From the NCBI GenBank assembly GCA_944391285.1, contig CALXSY010000003.1, forward strand, positions 1-64,000: DNA of 64,000 bases, given 5' to 3'. A program made the translations under genes and the position numbers. Below the pieces are notes generated by a model. It worked only from the letters and a program-made list of their open reading frames with translations, was not told where the DNA came from and did no database searches. This DNA comes from an uncultured Clostridia bacterium (lineage in GTDB: Bacteria > Bacillota > Peptococcia > Peptococcales > Peptococcaceae). Of the stretch, positions 16,934-59,110 are shown piece by piece. Numbering within the stretch: position 1 is the first letter of the stretch; each line of letters opens with the position of its first letter.

Positions 16934-17217
16934 GTATGCGAAATACTTAAATATTGTACAAGCGATGATTGAGACCAGTAAGGATTGCGGTGTTTTTCAG
17001 AGAATCGGCGGTTGGTGCAAGCCGATAAAGCTCCATTCCCCAATACCCTCATGAGTGCTTGTCTGAAAAAAGTAGGACAAGCCGTTTGGCAAGCGTTATT
17101 TTGCCCGAGTAGTTTAGGAAAATTACTCACTGAGAAATATTTCGCGAGAAATATTTGTTTTCAGAGGTGGTACCGCATTTTTGCCCTCTGTAGTCCTTAG
17201 ACTACGAGGCTTTTTTT
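16934..17217 (+). promoter_or_regulatory. T-box riboswitch leader of tyrS
   Basis: The canonical T-box sequence AGGTGGTACCGC is present at 17165-17176. Upstream stem I elements are visible: the AGAGA bulge and the GGTTGGTGCAAGCC segment. A UAC at 17044-17046 is the likely Tyr specifier codon, matching the downstream tyrS. The terminator arm is a stem around GTAGTC / GACTAC closed by GCC/GGC and followed by seven T (17183-17217). Uncharged tRNA-Tyr would stabilise the antiterminator and let transcription reach tyrS. The specifier is assigned by position and by fit to the gene; I did not fold the whole leader. Confidence 0.92.
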
Positions 17218-38955: not shown

Positions 38956-40500
38956 CTATTTAGCGTACTCTACGGCTCTGGTTTCTCTGGTAACGATTAC
39001 TTTGATTTGACCTGGGTATTCCAATTCAGCTTCAATGCGTTTAACGATATCACGGGAAATCCGTGCTGCCTCTACATCGTCAATCTTATCCGGTTTAACG
39101 ATAACTCGGATTTCGCGACCGGCTTGAATAGCATAACACTTATCAACACCGTCAAAGCTGTTGGCGATTTCCTCCAATTTTTCCAACCGGCGCAAATATG
39201 CTTCCAAAGTCTCACGGCGTGCGCCGGGACGGGCAGCAGAGATAGCATCGGCAGCAGCTACCAAAACTGCTTCAACAGTAGTCGGCTCGACATCGCCGTG
39301 GTGCGCCATGATAGCATTAACAACCTCTTTGCTTTCACGGTAACGTTTAGCCAAATCAGCACCGATAGTAATATGCGGTCCTTCCACCTCGTGATCCACT
39401 GCTTTACCGATATCATGCAGCAAACCGGCTCTTTTAGCCAGCTGTACATCTACGCCTAATTCAGCAGCCATAATTCCTGCCAAATGAGCAACCTCGATGG
39501 AGTGCTTCAAAACATTTTGCCCATAGCTGGTGCGGTATTTCAACCGACCCAAGAGCTTGATAATTTCCGGATGCAATCCCTGCACTCCGGTATCAAAGGT
39601 AGCTTGCTCGCCTTCCTCACGAATACGAGTTTCCACCTCTTTTTGCGCTTTCTCCACCATTTCCTCAATACGAGCAGGATGGATACGTCCGTCAACAATC
39701 AATTTCTCCAAAGCAATACGGGCGATTTCTCTTTTAATAGGATCAAAGCCCGAAAGAATGACTGCTTCCGGAGTATCATCAATAATTAAATCTATGCCTG
39801 TTAAATTCTCCAAAGTACGAATATTTCTGCCCTCACGACCGATGATTCGTCCCTTCATTTCATCATTAGGCAAAGCCACGACAGAAACAGTCGTTTCTGC
39901 CACATAATCGGCAGCACACCGCTGAATAGCCTGAGAAATAATCTCCTGGGCATTCTTCTCGGCTTGCTCCTTGGCATTATTTTCTAATTCTTTGATTAAA
40001 ATTGCTGTTTCATACTTGATTTCTTCTTCAACCTTGTTCAGCAAATATTCCCGAGCCTCATCGCTGGTTAATCCAGCCAAGCGTTCTAACTCTGCTACTT
40101 GCTTTTCATAAAGCTCATTGACCTGGGCTTTAAGTTTTTCTACTTGCGCTTCTGCTTTTTGCATCGCTTCTTCTTTACGCTCCATAGCGTCCATTTTGCG
40201 ATCCAAAGCATCTTCTTTTTGATTTAAGCGTTTTTCCGTTTTTTGTACTTCGGCACGTCTTTCTTTAACTTCTTTTTCTGCCTCATTGCGAATACGATAA
40301 GCCTCGTCTTTAGCTTCTAAAGCGGCGCTTTTCTTAATAGCTTCTACGTCTTTATTGGCATCATTGACAATTCTTTTGGCTTCATCTTCGGCAGATTTTA
40401 TAGCGGCTTCGGCAGTTTTCTTGCGTATTACATAACCGATGATACCGCCTATACACAAAGCTACTATACCTAAAATTGCAGGTACTAAAATATCCAGCAT
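38956..40500 (-). CDS. rny: Ribonuclease Y
   Basis: A membrane-anchored endoribonuclease that starts mRNA decay. The 514-residue protein has an N-terminal helix ([20 protein letters not shown]), a long coiled coil (about 25-200), a KH domain ([21 protein letters not shown]) and an HD domain ([16 protein letters not shown], the catalytic HD). Ribosome binding site GAGGAGG. A terminator-like hairpin precedes the gene inside its leader. Confidence 0.97.
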
Positions 40501-51439: not shown

Positions 51440-51473
51440 CAAAAAAGCTCCTATTTTATAGGAGCTTTTTTAT
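51440..51473. terminator. Bidirectional terminator between lysR A and permease A
   Basis: Stem AGCTCCTAT / ATAGGAGCT, with A run left and T run right. Confidence 0.85.
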
Positions 51474-51481
51474 AGCGATTT

Positions 51482-52885
51482 TTACATAAGCCCAATCAAA
51501 TACCAGTAAGGAACCATAATCACCATAATGGCAATTAATAAAAGCAGTGACTTGATTGTACAGATTTTTATCATATCGCCCATTTTAACCATACCGAAAG
51601 CAAACAAAATCAAGTATGCCGGGTATTCATACGGGAAAAATACAATTTCTTTTGCAATATATAATGTGACAATATGCGCCATAGGCTCAAATCCAGCTGC
51701 CAGGCAATATTGTGCAATTGGTCCCGGCAAAACAGCAGTCATAGCGAACGGTGACAAAACAAAATTAACCAGTGCCGCAAAAACAGCTGTGCCCAAAATG
51801 CCCCAATAATGACCTAAGCCTGCAATAAAAGGTACGCAAGCATTAGTAATTGCTGTACTTAAGCCTAATTGTGTTGCAATAGATCCTATACCTAAAAAAC
51901 CACCGATAACAAACATATTGTCCCAAGGAATATTTCTGATGCTGCTGTTATCAGCCAAGTTAACTCCCGGTAGATAGCAGATGATAACTGTAAAAAGGAA
52001 ACCATAAACAGCATCTAAGCCATGAAGCGGTTGCGAGAAAAGGCAGATAGCCAATATCACCAATACAACCACACCTTTTTTTTCTTCACTCTTCATTTTT
52101 CCAAGACCGGCATACTCATTTACAAAATATTCTTTACCTTTAACCGCATTTATTGTATTAGTACTTGTCTTCTCATACCATTTCAATGCCAGCCAAACCA
52201 AAAACATGGCAAAAAAAGGAATCGGCAGTGTATAATACATCAGTTGATACCATGTCAGGTTAAAACCCTCAATAACCATACCGGCTGAAGCATTCACTAA
52301 AGTTATCGTAATCGGACAATATAAGAATACCCCCAGCAAAATGCCGGCAATAGCAGCTGTCCAAGTAATAACTAAACTTTCCTTATCCCCAGGTTTAAGC
52401 TCTAATGACGAGTAAAGGGCGTAAGCAAAGGCAAACACCAAAACCATAGTTAACACGAAACCTACAAACATAATTACAAGACCAGTGAAAAACAATCCCC
52501 AAATCAACCCTTTAAAGGTGCCTCCGGTTTTTATAATACACCAAAGACCTAAGCGGTTTAAAATACCTGTTTTCTCTAAGATGCCTATTAAAACCATTGC
52601 TGTAATTGCTGTCAGCAGGTTGGTAGAAGTCCAAGCTGAAAACGCCATTTCAAATGTTGTTGCTCCACTGAGCACCCAACCGGTAGACATTATGAGAATA
52701 ACCGCAAAACCATTAAGGATTTCAAATGCCAAAAGAAATATGCCAAATATCGTAAATACTAAAAATCTTTGGAGCTGCACAGTATACACATCACTCAAAG
52801 GGAGAAACAGAGGTATTATTGAAATAATGATAGAAATAAGCCATTTAACGATTAGCCCTTTATTATTTTTTACTTGTACAGACAT
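51482..52885 (-). CDS. SLC13/ion-transporter-superfamily anion permease A
   Basis: A 467-residue membrane protein with about 12 helices, of the divalent-anion:Na+ symporter/IT type. Indicative segments: the re-entrant-loop-like STNLLTAITAMVLIGILEKTGIL and the second-half NFVLSPFAMTAVLPGPIAQYC. Substrates in this superfamily are di/tricarboxylates, sulfate and other organic anions; the substrate here is unknown. It is second in an operon with phosphodiesterase A, separated by a conserved hairpin. Confidence 0.82.
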   Translation of the reverse strand: MSVQVKNNKGLIVKWLISIIISIIPLFLPLSDVYTVQLQRFLVFTIFGIFLLAFEILNGFAVILIMSTGWVLSGATTFEMAFSAWTSTNLLTAITAMVLIGILEKTGILNRLGLWCIIKTGGTFKGLIWGLFFTGLVIMFVGFVLTMVLVFAFAYALYSSLELKPGDKESLVITWTAAIAGILLGVFLYCPITITLVNASAGMVIEGFNLTWYQLMYYTLPIPFFAMFLVWLALKWYEKTSTNTINAVKGKEYFVNEYAGLGKMKSEEKKGVVVLVILAICLFSQPLHGLDAVYGFLFTVIICYLPGVNLADNSSIRNIPWDNMFVIGGFLGIGSIATQLGLSTAITNACVPFIAGLGHYWGILGTAVFAALVNFVLSPFAMTAVLPGPIAQYCLAAGFEPMAHIVTLYIAKEIVFFPYEYPAYLILFAFGMVKMGDMIKICTIKSLLLLIAIMVIMVPYWYLIGLM

Positions 52886-52980
52886 AAAATTCCTCCTTTA
52901 CGATGTTATATTTTTAATATTATTATTATTCTATTAATTTCATATTTATTATCTTTTAGCTAAAGATATTTAATTGTGAA

Positions 52981-53016
52981 TTTTAGAACGGCAAAGCAAA
53001 GTTTGCCGCTCTAAAA
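52981..53016 (-). promoter_or_regulatory. Intercistronic hairpin A
   Basis: A 15-bp stem in the minus-strand RNA, arms TTTTAGAGCGGCAAA and TTTGCCGTTCTAAAA with one G-U pair, 6-nt loop, 6 nt after the phosphodiesterase A stop. No good T run follows, so it may be a stability or processing element or a leaky terminator. Shares AGAnCGGCAAA with hairpin B. Confidence 0.6.
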
Positions 53017-53022
53017 ACTATC

Positions 53023-55023
53023 TTACTTCAGCGCTTGATAAATAATGCCTCCTTCGCATTTGTCAGGAACCGGAGCCCCCTGCAAACTGCAAATTGTCGG
53101 AACAATATCTACCTGATGCACTCGTCTTGCCATCACAAAGTTTTCCTTAATACCTTTCCCAGCCGCAAAGAACAAGCATTTCATGGAAAACTCGTAACTT
53201 TCTGTGCTGCTGAACGATGCTGCGTGATCCTGGGTGCAGTGTGGATGAAGGATAAAATAAAGGTCTCCTACTCTGTCACCATACAGCCCCAAGGCTTCCA
53301 TGCCGTCACGTTTAACTATACAGTCAACAATTCTTTCATTAGTTTGCGGATCTCTATATGCATATAAATCGTCAATAATTTTATCTAACAAAGCATCATA
53401 ATCTTCCGGTTCTACACATCCTTGCGGATCTCTGCCTTTCAAGTTAACATAAATATATCCGCTTCTCTGGCTTACCGCAGTAGTATGTGCCCAGTCAATC
53501 TGCGTTTTTCCCTTTTCATCTTTCATGGTTTTGACATAACCCAAGCTTTGCATAATATCTACGACAATTCCCCATGAATCAGCAATCAAAGGTTTCGGAT
53601 AACCATATTTGCGCGGCAGACCGGCATGATCAGATACTACGAAAATAGCTGTTTCGCCGTCATCCAAATGGTAAAGCATTTTTCCTAATGTCGCATCAAT
53701 ATTTTGATAATATTTGACTAAAAGCTCGTGGAAATTTTCATACCGCGGACTTTCCGGGCAAATATCGGAAAGCATGTTATGATTGGCACAATCAATGGAA
53801 TGCATATGGCAATAGAAAAGATCCCACTCCTTATTATCCAGCAGATAATTAATAGCATCAGCATGCCAATCCATATTTAACGCCCAAGTTTCCTGACCAA
53901 TATACGGATATGGTCTGCCGGCATTTGATGGCTGAATAAACGGTCCTATATGTTCCAGCAACTCTTGCGCAATTGCCGGCGGATATGTTGTTTTTTCGTT
54001 AGCTTTCAGCCGGCACGCTGCAGAAACATACAACTCCATTTCATCTGCATCGGGGCTTAATTTATAAAGCCTCATCTTATAGGCAACCTCACGTTTTATA
54101 TCGCCTTCCAGCATGCTGTCATATATCCAGCCGCTCCACTCACCTAACCGGACTTCACCTAATAATTTGTCCTCTTTCTTGCTGGCATAAAGCTTCAATG
54201 AGCGATATTGACCGTTTTCCGGCAGCAATAAACCGGTTCTTCTCAATATTCCGTTGTTCATCGGCAAAGTAACTTCCAACGCACCGTCCGGCAGCTCCAT
54301 GCCCCAATTTTCTGCCGGTCTGATGGCTGTTTCAAACTTATTAATAATCGACATCCACTCTGCTTCATTGCCTACAGCAGTTCCTTCATTAACATGACCA
54401 ACTTCAAATAAGCCGCTGAAGTGCTCATCTCCGTCTGTATTGGTATCCGTATCAGTTACGTCAAACTTTTTGCTTTCAACAGTTTCTGTCATAACACAGC
54501 CGGCACCGGTATCATTTTTGCCGGCATACTTGGAAATCAGCTCAAAATCTCCTTTTTTACCAAAATACAGCTTATCTAAATCAATAATATTTTGCCCCAT
54601 ACATTCCGAGTTGCTGCCGTCCACATAAATAACATTTTCTTTGCTGGTAGGCGGCCAAGCAGTTGGATAGTTAAATACTATCGATTTCTTCCCGGCTTTG
54701 GCATATACATCCCAAATAAACTCTGCGCGAATCTGTTTGGAGTTCCAGCCTAAATCCAAGTCATCTAAATCTCTGCCGGCAGTGTGATTCCAAAAACAAG
54801 TTATCCCATGAGTTCCCGGCCAAGCTCCGGTGGCCAAGGTTGCCCAACAAGGCGGGGTAATGGTCGGCAAAGCGCCAATCATACCAACATTTTCAGTAGT
54901 TACACCAATGTCTCTCATTTTTTGAAAATTTGGCATTTTCCCTTGTTCTATTAACGTATTAACAAATTTAGGATCGGCACCATCAAAACCAATAACCATA
55001 ACTTTCTTTACTTTTTCCGTCAT
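53023..55023 (-). CDS. Alkaline phosphatase-superfamily (NPP-type) phosphodiesterase A
   Basis: A 666-residue type I phosphodiesterase/nucleotide pyrophosphatase-fold enzyme without signal peptide, hence cytoplasmic. Metal/catalytic residues: D14 (VIGFDGAD), T56 nucleophile (PTITPPCWATLATG), D and H in SIDCANH, DH in VVSDHAG, and the last His in QDHAASF. The CxPxR formylglycine motif of sulfatases is absent. Long insert of ~250 residues between T56 and the second metal motif (beta-rich, MELPDGALEVTLP). First gene of an operon with permease A. Substrate unknown: phosphodiester, phosphonate or another anionic ester. Confidence 0.85.
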   Translation of the reverse strand: MTEKVKKVMVIGFDGADPKFVNTLIEQGKMPNFQKMRDIGVTTENVGMIGALPTITPPCWATLATGAWPGTHGITCFWNHTAGRDLDDLDLGWNSKQIRAEFIWDVYAKAGKKSIVFNYPTAWPPTSKENVIYVDGSNSECMGQNIIDLDKLYFGKKGDFELISKYAGKNDTGAGCVMTETVESKKFDVTDTDTNTDGDEHFSGLFEVGHVNEGTAVGNEAEWMSIINKFETAIRPAENWGMELPDGALEVTLPMNNGILRRTGLLLPENGQYRSLKLYASKKEDKLLGEVRLGEWSGWIYDSMLEGDIKREVAYKMRLYKLSPDADEMELYVSAACRLKANEKTTYPPAIAQELLEHIGPFIQPSNAGRPYPYIGQETWALNMDWHADAINYLLDNKEWDLFYCHMHSIDCANHNMLSDICPESPRYENFHELLVKYYQNIDATLGKMLYHLDDGETAIFVVSDHAGLPRKYGYPKPLIADSWGIVVDIMQSLGYVKTMKDEKGKTQIDWAHTTAVSQRSGYIYVNLKGRDPQGCVEPEDYDALLDKIIDDLYAYRDPQTNERIVDCIVKRDGMEALGLYGDRVGDLYFILHPHCTQDHAASFSSTESYEFSMKCLFFAAGKGIKENFVMARRVHQVDIVPTICSLQGAPVPDKCEGGIIYQALK

Positions 55024-55311: not shown

Positions 55312-55341
55312 AAAAAAAGCGCTTTGATTTCTCAAAGCGCT
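55312..55341 (-). terminator. Terminator after permease B
   Basis: Minus strand: stem AGCGCTTTGA / TCAAAGCGCT followed by TTTTTTT; separates operon B from operon A. Confidence 0.85.
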
Positions 55342-55359
55342 AAATTAATCATACATTTT

Positions 55360-56823
55360 TTAAAACAAAACATTGCCCAAAGGCATAAATACTAAAAGCA
55401 TTGCCAAAGTAGCAGCCACCATTGCAATAACTGCAGCCATCATAATATATCTGCTGGAAATATGCTCCGCTTGCGAATAAATCAAAGCTCCATAGAAAGA
55501 CGAAGCTGGAAGTAAAAATGCCGTTTGCGCCATCAAGCACATTAATACAGCCATCATATGCAAATTTAAACCAAGGCTTTCTGAATATGGCATAATTACC
55601 GCAATCATCAGAAGCATTACAACTGTATTATTGGCAAAGTTCGTTAAAATTAAAGTAATTACAAATACAATAACTGTAAAGGTAAAGGCACTATGCCCAC
55701 CCAAAATTGGATTGACTAAAGACATAACCCAAGCAGATATACCTGTTGCTTCGTTGGTCAGCATCGGTGAAAAAGTAAAGGCTATTGCCATCAAAAGTAC
55801 CGAATCCCAAACTATCATGCTGGCTGTTTTTGAAACATCCAGCATAGGCTTGCCATCAATTTTGACTAAGACCATAATTGCAGTTAGAAGCCAGGAAACA
55901 CCCAAAGTTCCCAAACGACTATATGTTTGCACAAAAGCATTATCTCCTAAAAAACTAACTAATCCTGTAAGCATCATCATTACCAAAAAGACTATTAAAT
56001 ATATCCCGGCAAATTTTTGTCTTTTGTTCATCGGCGGCAAGTCTTTAAATACCATTGCTGCATCAGCATTTTTTAAAGCAGATAAATCAATACGCAAAAC
56101 AAATTTCATCATTAAAATAAAAAGTATTAAAGCTGCTGTACATCCGCAAATAAGCAGGATAGAGGCTGAGACAATATTTATTTCCGTCATCGGTGTCATG
56201 CCATAAAAGAAACCCATGACAGATACAAATGCGGACTTATATGGTAAAGATATTATGCCGCAAACAAAAGCAAACATTAAACCTACCACCATAGCAGCAC
56301 AATATTTGCTTTTCCGAGGTATGCCGGCAGTTTCTGCTATTTTATAAACCATCTCCCACATAACAAAAAGCAAAGGCATTTCTCCGCCTAAAGCCACAAT
56401 GATATATAAGCCCAGAATTAAAGCACCTGTCAAAAGCCAAGGTCTGCCCTCAATAATTTTTCTGGTGATGATCCATCTAACTAAATAGTCGAAAACCCCG
56501 GTTTGCGCCACAGCAAATATTACCGCCATAGCAAACACGCACATAATTACCAGGCTATTGCCAAAGGACGATGTGCAAACAGCAGCTGAGTTCTCGCCAA
56601 AAATAATCATGGCAATAAGTCCCATCAAGCTGGGCCAAAACATGCCTACTAAAGACCAAAGATAAACTAACCCTAATAAAATACCCAAATATTTCATACC
56701 AAGCGGCGTAACTGTACTAAAAGGAGGTAAAAAACCAACGCCGAACATTAAAATGAGACCAATAACTGAATGAATATAATATTTTTTATCTTTTGATAAT
56801 TTTCCTTTTGTTTCTACGCTCAT
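55360..56823 (-). CDS. SLC13/DASS-type anion permease B
   Basis: A 487-residue permease with about 12-13 helices of the same superfamily as permease A but quite diverged. GNSLVIMCVFAMAVIFAVAQTG and the second-half NFANNTVVMLLMIAVIMPYSE resemble the paired SNT-like substrate loops of DASS carriers. Second gene of operon B, 94 nt after phosphodiesterase B with hairpin B between. Substrate unknown. Confidence 0.82.
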   Translation of the reverse strand: MSVETKGKLSKDKKYYIHSVIGLILMFGVGFLPPFSTVTPLGMKYLGILLGLVYLWSLVGMFWPSLMGLIAMIIFGENSAAVCTSSFGNSLVIMCVFAMAVIFAVAQTGVFDYLVRWIITRKIIEGRPWLLTGALILGLYIIVALGGEMPLLFVMWEMVYKIAETAGIPRKSKYCAAMVVGLMFAFVCGIISLPYKSAFVSVMGFFYGMTPMTEINIVSASILLICGCTAALILFILMMKFVLRIDLSALKNADAAMVFKDLPPMNKRQKFAGIYLIVFLVMMMLTGLVSFLGDNAFVQTYSRLGTLGVSWLLTAIMVLVKIDGKPMLDVSKTASMIVWDSVLLMAIAFTFSPMLTNEATGISAWVMSLVNPILGGHSAFTFTVIVFVITLILTNFANNTVVMLLMIAVIMPYSESLGLNLHMMAVLMCLMAQTAFLLPASSFYGALIYSQAEHISSRYIMMAAVIAMVAATLAMLLVFMPLGNVLF

Positions 56824-56852
56824 AATGTTTCCTCCTTAATCATATTGAAAAT

Positions 56853-56887
56853 ATCCAAAGAACAGCTTTATTTGCCGTTCTCTGGAT
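56853..56887 (-). promoter_or_regulatory. Intercistronic hairpin B
   Basis: Minus-strand RNA forms a 14-bp stem (ATCCAGAGAACGGC / GCTGTTCTTTGGAT, two G-U pairs) with a 7-nt loop, between phosphodiesterase B and permease B. It matches hairpin A in position and in the AGAnCGGCAAA core. Confidence 0.6.
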
Positions 56888-56917
56888 AACCCTCATTAAA
56901 TTTTCATTGCAGCATTA

Positions 56918-58948
56918 TTAATCTTCCAAAATCTGATAAATTGGTGCTCCCTCAGCATTTGCCGGCATTCTTACGCCGCCAAGCACTGCTACAGTAGGAG
57001 CCACATCCACCTCACGAATGACACGTGTGGTTTTAAAGTTTTTCTTGATTCCTTTGCCTGCTGCAGCAAAAATAGGTGATTGCGATGTGTGTGCAAGCCC
57101 TCTTGCAGTTGATAGTCCATCACCATGATCGCCTAAATGTCTATCAGTCTGCATAACTATCAAATCCCCGCACTCTGGTCCACCTAAACCAATTACAGCT
57201 GCATCTTTATTGCGCAATACTAAAGAATATGGGCAATGACCTTTTTCATCTTTCATATTGTAAAAATGCGTAATAATATCTGCTTCCAAATCATATTTAT
57301 CTGCCGGATCAACAATACCAGTTGCATACTTACCTTTTAAATTAATATATATTTCATTCATACGCGTAAATACTGCCTTAGTTTTACTCCAATCTATTTC
57401 TTGTAACGGATTACCATCATCATCATATAAAACTTCAGTATATCCCCAATCGCGCATAAATGTAGCATCAACACCTGCTCCGGCATAATCGGAATAACCT
57501 TGTTGTTCTGTACAAGTCAAACCATGATCTGATATCAAGAAAATTGTCCAACCTTCATCTAATAAATGTAAAAAGCGCCCTAAATAGTAATCATTCTGCT
57601 TAGATATTTCAACCAAAAATCTTTGATAATCCTCAGCAGGTAATGTTCCGCCGCCGTTAGCAAATGCAATAAACATATGCTTGATAGCGTCATCGTTATG
57701 AACATGCGAAAAAATGACCTCTATACCTTTTTTCTCAATCATATAATGTAAACTGTCAGCCCACCACCGCATAGTACGCATCCAGTTTTCCAGCATGCAA
57801 TCCTCAATCAACTCTTTATCTACGGAGCCAAGATTGGAAACCGGCGGTGGAAATCCAATATTTTCAATAATTTCTTTATGCAAAGACTTCGGTGAGAATA
57901 CACTGTCATCTGCAATATCAATACCAGCAGAAATCCACATTCTTACTTTACTGCCGTCTTCAGCAATTTCCAAAACTCTCATATTACGAGCAACTTCAAA
58001 AGTCTTATCTTTTTTTATAGCTTCATCAACAATACCTTCAACAAATTCCTTGTTTTTAATTACAACTATAGGTTCGTTGGATTTTTTGTTTTTATAAATT
58101 GCTACTTTATCGTAAACACCGTCTTCATTTTTAGTCAACAATGCCTGCCGTCTAATTAGACCTTGTGAAAATAAAATTATAAATTCTTTAGCATCATCAG
58201 GTACCGCTATACTCCACCCCTCAGCTTTTTTGATTGGAGATAAACTAGCATCTAAGGGTTGCGCTGTCATATCACTTTTTGCTCCTTTTGGCAAACGGAT
58301 AATCTTTATATCGGGAGCGGTTGCCATTTGATGCTGATACTCTTTTTGATCGCCTAAATCGGTAGCATTTTTCGGAGTATCCTCCATCTCAATATCAGTG
58401 ATTACGCACATATGAGAAGTTTCACCGGCAGCTTTTTTAAACGTCACCACTTCGATATTTTCTGAAGCAACAGCAACATACTCCCAGTCTTTTTGTCCCA
58501 TTCCCATGCAAATACCTTCTGGCTGTGTGCCATCAACTACATATAAATTTTTACTGTCGCTGCTCGGCGGCCATGAAGATCCAGGCCAATGCCAAACAAG
58601 GGTTTTTTTGCCCGCTTCAGCAAAGACATTCCATACTTGCTCTGCTTGGCACAATCTAGAGTCAAGTGCATAACCAAAGGTATCCAATTTTTCGGGGTTT
58701 TGTCTCCAAAAGTCAGTAATGCCATGAGTCATTGGATAAGCACCAGTAGCCAAGGTAGTCCACATTGGAGGAGTAATAGTTGGCATTGCTCCCAACAAAA
58801 CCAGATCTTCTCTAGCTGAACCCCTTTCTAAAAACTTTTGTAAGTTAGGCATATAACCTTGTTCCATATGATATTTAGTTAAAACAGGATCCATTCCATC
58901 GATACCTAAAACTAATATTTTGTCAGCAATGTTTGTAGCTTTTAGCAT
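56918..58948 (-). CDS. Alkaline phosphatase-superfamily (NPP-type) phosphodiesterase B
   Basis: A 676-residue paralogue of phosphodiesterase A. Shared blocks: LGIDGMDPV (D17), MPTITPPMWTTLATGAYPMTHGI (T59), the WPPSS segment, NDDAIKH (D and H), FLISDHGL (DH) and GDHGDG (last His). No signal peptide. The insert between metal motifs is diverged from A, suggesting a different but related substrate. The start is the ATG 8 nt after AAAGGAGA; an ATG 45 nt upstream has no site. First gene of operon B. Confidence 0.85.
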   Translation of the reverse strand: MLKATNIADKILVLGIDGMDPVLTKYHMEQGYMPNLQKFLERGSAREDLVLLGAMPTITPPMWTTLATGAYPMTHGITDFWRQNPEKLDTFGYALDSRLCQAEQVWNVFAEAGKKTLVWHWPGSSWPPSSDSKNLYVVDGTQPEGICMGMGQKDWEYVAVASENIEVVTFKKAAGETSHMCVITDIEMEDTPKNATDLGDQKEYQHQMATAPDIKIIRLPKGAKSDMTAQPLDASLSPIKKAEGWSIAVPDDAKEFIILFSQGLIRRQALLTKNEDGVYDKVAIYKNKKSNEPIVVIKNKEFVEGIVDEAIKKDKTFEVARNMRVLEIAEDGSKVRMWISAGIDIADDSVFSPKSLHKEIIENIGFPPPVSNLGSVDKELIEDCMLENWMRTMRWWADSLHYMIEKKGIEVIFSHVHNDDAIKHMFIAFANGGGTLPAEDYQRFLVEISKQNDYYLGRFLHLLDEGWTIFLISDHGLTCTEQQGYSDYAGAGVDATFMRDWGYTEVLYDDDGNPLQEIDWSKTKAVFTRMNEIYINLKGKYATGIVDPADKYDLEADIITHFYNMKDEKGHCPYSLVLRNKDAAVIGLGGPECGDLIVMQTDRHLGDHGDGLSTARGLAHTSQSPIFAAAGKGIKKNFKTTRVIREVDVAPTVAVLGGVRMPANAEGAPIYQILED

Positions 58949-59019
58949 TTGAATATCTCCTTTTTTTGAATTTTCTGTATTTATTATGCGCATATATAAA
59001 TACGATGTCTACATTTATA

Positions 59020-59061: not shown

Positions 59062-59110
59062 GCTTTTTTCTCTCTAATGCAATTATAAATTGCATTAGAG
59101 AGAAAAAAGC
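59062..59110. repeat. Perfect 49-bp inverted repeat (23-bp arms, 3-nt centre)
   Basis: Both arms read GCTTTTTTCTCTCTAATGCA plus ATT inward, with ATA at the centre and no mismatch. It ends 13 bp upstream of the -35 of operon B, and its distal edge forms the T run of the LysR-B terminator. It could be the operator of LysR B, a second terminator, or a trace of a duplication or insertion. Confidence 0.85.

Follow-up and report, generated by a model that had tools for sequence, protein, structure and literature searches.

Intercistronic RNA hairpins between phosphodiesterase and anion permease genes in Peptococcaceae: probable stabilisers of the upstream message

In the cip-cel operon of Clostridium (Ruminiclostridium) cellulolyticum, according to the available portions of two reports (PMC4423207, PMC8219983), an intercistronic stem-loop closes the upstream gene at its 3' end, little U stands behind the stems of the stabilizer kind, and the downstream gene is reached by read-through and is less abundant. 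The free energies of the four stems tested there range from -13.5 to -24.0 kcal/mol, and the ratio of upstream to downstream transcript was largest with a U-poor one (PMC8219983). A second system is represented by the ABC importer operons of cellulolytic Clostridia, in which a stem with a reduced U-tract follows the first gene and the soluble partner exceeds the membrane part. Its description gives termination of 20.7 to 96.1% at these internal stems, and also a reporter assay in R. cellulolyticum in which a strong stem lacking its U-tract caused no termination whatsoever (PMC9045158).

The hairpins described here, named A and B, resemble the cip-cel stems in their position where the upstream gene ends, in the scarcity of U behind most stems of the kind, in the range of their free energies and in a downstream gene that would be reached by read-through. 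They differ in that the genes involved encode a phosphodiesterase (PDE) and an anion permease instead of a protein complex, in that such hairpins are found in dozens of paralogous operons, subject to the order of the genes, and in that their processing is a prediction. With the internal terminators of the ABC importer operons they share a stem after the first gene, a reduced U-tract and a predicted excess of the soluble partner over the membrane one, although most stems here are without even a discrete U-tract, and the U-run of hairpin A lies on the wrong side. Like ordinary intrinsic terminators, they are stable hairpins near a stop codon, but a tract of 6 U in 8 nt is lacking in A, in B and in 41 of the 52 strong stems compared, and the permease start is often within 40 nt. 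A stable stem-loop within an operon at the upstream gene's 3' end, one of the criteria for SRPS stabilisers, is present in both A and B, assuming co-transcription. The hairpins most likely work like SRPS stabiliser stem-loops. The kind of element is already known, and what is unusual here is its scale, the gene-order rule and the turnover of its sequence.

The window, as we call the whole 64-kb stretch of DNA analysed, carries both operons on its minus strand. In operon A, the first gene is an ORF of 666 amino acids, PDE A (53023-55023; Pfam PF01663, 4.5e-32), and the second, permease A (51482-52885), is an ORF with profile matches to the CitMHS / Na_sulph_symp family (DASS-like anion symporter). 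In operon B, the first ORF is PDE B (56918-58993; PF01663, 2.7e-24), whose start codon is uncertain between 58993 and 58948, and the second is permease B (55360-56823), of the CitMHS family. Both PDEs are type I phosphodiesterases / nucleotide pyrophosphatases of the alkaline phosphatase superfamily (PF01663), and by profile the kin of the family include phosphonoacetate hydrolase, PafA and nucleotide pyrophosphatases of known structure. Hairpin A is separated from permease A by an A+T-rich spacer of 95 nt (52886-52980, minus strand), the presumed place of endonucleolytic cleavage. Permease B starts 28 nt 3' of the core stem of hairpin B, and this spacer (56824-56851, minus strand), which contains the Shine-Dalgarno sequence AAGGAGG, is so short that no promoter can fit in it. 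Promoter-like sites on the minus strand were reported in neither of the two PDE-permease gaps, the scan being a weak test. From the short spacer we infer that PDE and permease are co-transcribed in both operons; operon B ends after its permease at a terminator-like hairpin with a U-tract detected by the terminator scan (55318-55341, minus strand). Two other inverted repeats were observed around these genes. A perfect one of 14 bp (51441-51471) lies between the convergent LysR and permease A genes and is likely a two-way terminator, and a perfect one of 23 bp with a loop of 3 nt (59062-59110) lies between a LysR gene and PDE B, where it overlaps the terminator-like hairpin of the LysR gene.

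Hairpin A (52981-53016, minus strand) starts 6 nt behind the stop codon of PDE A, and folding of the minus-strand transcript gave a stem of 15 contiguous pairs, one of them G-U, closed by a 6-nt loop. The 54-nt stretch around it folds at -19.7 kcal/mol, a value not equalled by any of 200 dinucleotide shuffles (mean -7.1, z -5.3), and the plus strand is weaker (-16.3 kcal/mol), because there the G-U pair turns into an A-C mismatch. Hairpin B (56852-56888, minus strand) begins 29 nt past the stop codon of PDE B and has 15 contiguous pairs as well, two of them G-U, with a 7-nt loop. With its lower extension, up to about 56846-56895, it folds at -25.4 kcal/mol (z -7.6, matched by 0 of 200 dinucleotide shuffles), the same stretch on the plus strand giving -15.2 kcal/mol. 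Both hairpins are real, as supported by folding, shuffles and family comparison. The first-pass annotation had thus described hairpin A exactly, in position and in its 15 bp, and was right in giving both hairpins a like place and in reading their mismatches as G-U only on the transcribed strand; hairpin B is present as it claimed, although the 14 bp proposed at 56853-56887 were one pair short. An Rfam scan of the whole window at the gathering score matched neither hairpin to a family. The sole match in the window was a T-box leader (RF00230, 103.4 bits) at 16956-17191, and the ORF behind it presumably encodes a protein resembling a tyrosyl-tRNA synthetase.

Gaps between neighbouring genes were surveyed in the window, in 20 further stretches of its own genome (with the window, about 398 kb of 1.70 Mb) and at the PDE loci of relatives, which were picked from search hits rather than at random; the relatives' background consists of the flanks of PDE loci instead of whole genomes. 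Genes were called by a simple ORF procedure, a permease being a BLAST match to either permease of the window or to their matches. Gaps of 40-420 nt were counted, which drops 1 of the relatives' 52 PDE>permease pairs, after removal of duplicates (16 PDE>permease rows and others). With a fold-based criterion of at least 10 pairs and -12 kcal/mol or lower, hairpins were found in 12/12 own and 48/51 relatives' gaps when the PDE precedes the permease, so the hairpin predicted for homologous operons in the first reading was found at the same place. By contrast, they occur in only 1/6 own and 2/14 relatives' gaps in the reverse order, in 0/2 and 0/6 gaps between another gene and a permease, and in 45/120 and 29/78 other same-strand gaps. 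The three relatives' failures comprise two loci without a clear single hairpin (L131, L261) and one with only a short stem (L265). A thirteenth own PDE>permease case (C10, L010), outside these counts, also has a hairpin. A stricter test allowing no bulge, on own and family gaps together, gave 52/63 for PDE>permease, 2/20 for permease>PDE (p 6e-9) and 43/198 for other pairs (p 4e-18). When the first 120 nt of each gap were shuffled, z values of -3 or below were obtained in 12/12 own and 38/51 relatives' PDE>permease gaps, against 1/6 and 1/14 in permease>PDE gaps and 30/120 in the other own gaps. Clustering of the PDEs at 60% identity showed the hairpin in all members of 34 of the 37 clusters. 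These data support that the hairpin belongs to the end of the PDE gene, and that the order of the genes decides whether it comes to lie between them. U-poor stems were also found behind 15 of the 44 relatives' PDE genes preceding a gene not called permease, so stems may rather be a general feature of PDE ends, which would then differ in how far they terminate.

The inverted-repeat search was strand-symmetric, treating G-T and A-C mismatches alike. Among the 52 strong stems, which come from PDE>permease gaps in the own genome and in the family (802 positions), 43 G-U versus 11 A-C mismatches were counted on the transcribed strand (p 1.4e-5), and by 60% clusters 16 leaned toward G-U and 3 toward A-C (p 0.004). 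The 77 control stems from convergent gaps, each counted once, gave 47 G-U and 48 A-C. An excess of G-U on the transcribed strand means that the RNA structure is what is under selection, and the suggestion of selection on RNA made at first sight is well supported, its three mismatches in A and B being extended here to the whole family. The sequences of the stems, including those of the own genome, are unrelated among the PDE>permease hairpins, in such a way that even close paralogues have each a distinct stem at the same place: two PDEs 83% identical (L079 and L129), both with intact stems, and two 72% identical (L068 and L081). The stem is recognisably common in a tandem pair (L214, 84%), in which an A-U pair became G-C by changes on both sides, the one clear compensatory change. 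The element is therefore real, acts at the RNA level and is constrained in structure only, its place and shape being conserved over some 60 examined operons.

The reading that we favour, with a fair degree of confidence, is that both hairpins are intercistronic stem-loops in the RNA, each closing off its PDE cistron at the 3' end and protecting it, leading to more enzyme than transporter. Transcription would mostly pass the stem and reach the permease gene. An endonuclease, for which RNase Y is the likely candidate, would then cut in the A+U-rich spacer, and the stem would block 3'-to-5' exonucleases such as PNPase, in such a way that the PDE message would outlast that of the permease and the enzyme would be made in excess of the transporter. 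The cut, the protective effect and the PDE excess are what we infer; genes for both nucleases are present in the genome, RNase Y (787.9 bits) in the window itself at 38959-40473, and PNPase (1037.2 bits). The stem-to-start-codon spacer is of 40 nt or less in 30 of the 49 U-poor cases, which is too short to hold a promoter, so that expression of the permease there requires read-through. Probably, then, the hairpin shape is kept so that a single message yields enzyme in excess of transporter, and a role of the hairpin in setting the enzyme-to-permease ratio, as proposed in the first reading, would fit the sequence data. Hairpin A fits a stabiliser best. The stabilizer rule published in PMC8219983 asks for a U content of at most 5 and a poly(U) of at most 3 behind the stem. 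Applied to the first 10 nt past the full stem, it separates poorly on this material: hairpin A falls within these limits and hairpin B, with UUUU, outside them, and 9/11 own strong stems and 39/52 of all strong PDE>permease stems fall within them, but so do 118/170 operon-end stems.

The main rival, and more so for B than for A, is leaky internal termination, in which the stem would end part of the transcripts after the PDE gene and a weakened U-tract would tune the permease share, as shown for the ABC importer operons. We regard it as the less probable reading, though a serious one, since its layout and predicted outcome equal those of these operons (PMC9045158). Termination was judged by the maximal number of U in 8 nt, counted outward from the sixth pair, a score that also catches paired U-runs (as in L058). 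The U-tract of an intrinsic terminator (at least 6 U in 8) is absent from both hairpins, with at best 3/8 in A and 5/8 in B. In hairpin A there is no U-tract 3' of the stem, only 4 U in 10 nt with a longest run of 2, and the 3' arm ends in AAAA while the U-run belongs to the 5' side, opposite to the order in a terminator, all of which speaks against leakage there. Hairpin B is followed by UUUUC and was listed as terminator-like by a looser terminator scan, so it may terminate in part, possibly as a mixture. In the family, 11 of the 52 strong PDE>permease stems are U-rich, and the spacers behind them are longer than behind U-poor ones (p 0.004), as expected if a true terminator precedes a separate promoter. 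Against leaky termination as the general explanation, the remaining 41 never reach 6 U in 8, the mean U content of the first 8 nt is 36% versus 46% in convergent gaps, and a published strong stem failed to terminate once its U-tract was missing (PMC9045158). With convergent gaps counted from each side, U-rich stems make up 41/46 of their strong stems in the own genome and 74/108 in the relatives. Strong U-poor stems were found in 10/12 own PDE>permease gaps versus 8/120 other own gaps. Rho-dependent termination was rejected, as the best match to Rho in the window's genome (100% complete by estimate) scores 38.1 bits against a cut-off of 509.45.

It is improbable that the stems are relics, that is, former PDE terminators whose U-tracts decayed once a permease gene joined behind and which have no present role. 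Every PDE end does tend to have a hairpin, many of them with U-tracts where no permease follows, as such an origin would predict. Stems free of selection would decay, yet the hairpin is kept throughout nearly all the PDE clusters, the mismatches favour G-U over A-C, the 83%-identical paralogues have quite different and still intact stems, and permease>PDE junctions are without stems.

We consider it very unlikely that a sequence-specific RNA- or DNA-binding protein recognises the word AGAnCGGCAAA, which the first-pass annotation had found in both stems, with protein binding to the hairpins as one of its suggestions. The match itself is real, with 10 of 11 letters in common on the same arm, AGAGCGGCAAA in hairpin A (53002-53012, minus strand) and AGAACGGCAAA in hairpin B (56871-56881, minus strand). 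It is near chance, however, the word occurring 16 times in the window's genome versus 14 for its reversed control, and at least 10 of 11 letters being common to 13 of the 1326 pairs among the 52 hairpins and to 2 of the 55 own pairs, in such a way that the other own stems are without it. Nor are the two copies structurally equivalent, because the last AAA is stem in A and loop in B, and the mismatch bias speaks for an RNA and not a DNA element. Binding of a protein through this word finds no support, and a sequence motif in the stems was rejected, the word being at control level and the stems unrelated. Least probable of all is a REP-like origin, in which copies of a mobile or repetitive palindrome landed behind PDE genes. 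Such a palindrome does stand behind several PDE genes of one relative (G003), but the stems of the window's genome are unrelated to one another and the G003 repeat is not enriched there (3 matches versus 5 for the control); a dispersed repeat was rejected as their source in this genome. The G003 palindrome, of about 38 nt (e.g., C32:6288-6325, C23:10104-10141 and C10:10114-10151) and at times with a U-run, gave 22 + 26 matches versus 5 + 5 for a control word in that genome, and is a possible source of new hairpins.

Returning to the stem-loop as a stabiliser, we tentatively propose, as a generalisation that is somewhat less likely than not, a portable 3' cap: in these Peptococcaceae, nearly every PDE gene preceding a permease gene would need an RNA stem at its end, of free sequence and open to wholesale replacement, and permease-first operons would go without. 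If true, the cap would amount to a natural experiment, over some 60 operons, on how the enzyme-to-transporter ratio is set through RNA stability, and the stoichiometry of a PDE family would be set by a structural RNA element invisible to sequence searches. The gene-order rule, with a stem if the PDE comes first and none if the permease does, serves as a clean control within the data. Because stem sequences turn over fast while their place stays fixed, a constraint on structure alone can be tested directly.

The PDE family itself is large. The Peptococcaceae-like genome of the window has 21 full-length PDE genes, the other 20 being 32-39% identical to PDE A, and one broken copy with several stop codons (G000:C4:26152-27177), clustered with PDE and permease genes that are intact. 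The nearest homologue of PDE A (L021, 59%) has its permease in front, with a gap of 28 nt. PDE genes were present in 12 of 12 family genomes searched and in several more distant ones, and in the relative G003 (3.0 Mb) PDE B gave 66 matches with E values of 1e-150 or lower. The expansion is very large for such small Peptococcaceae genomes, and the genes are often paired with an anion permease gene and near LysR genes. Our literature search, thin on subscription papers, found nothing on Peptococcaceae PDE operons with hairpins. In a scan of named organisms, PDE A alone as query gave no loci and the PDE alignment gave 79, the neighbours being Peptococcaceae MAGs and, farther away, Desulfosporosinus, Pelotomaculum and others. 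In three loci from Desulfosporosinus and other named genomes (L168, L184 and L197), the PDE homologue precedes a thioredoxin-like or transporter-like gene, and the three have a similar stem in common, CAGCTATCAGA...TCTGATAGCTG.
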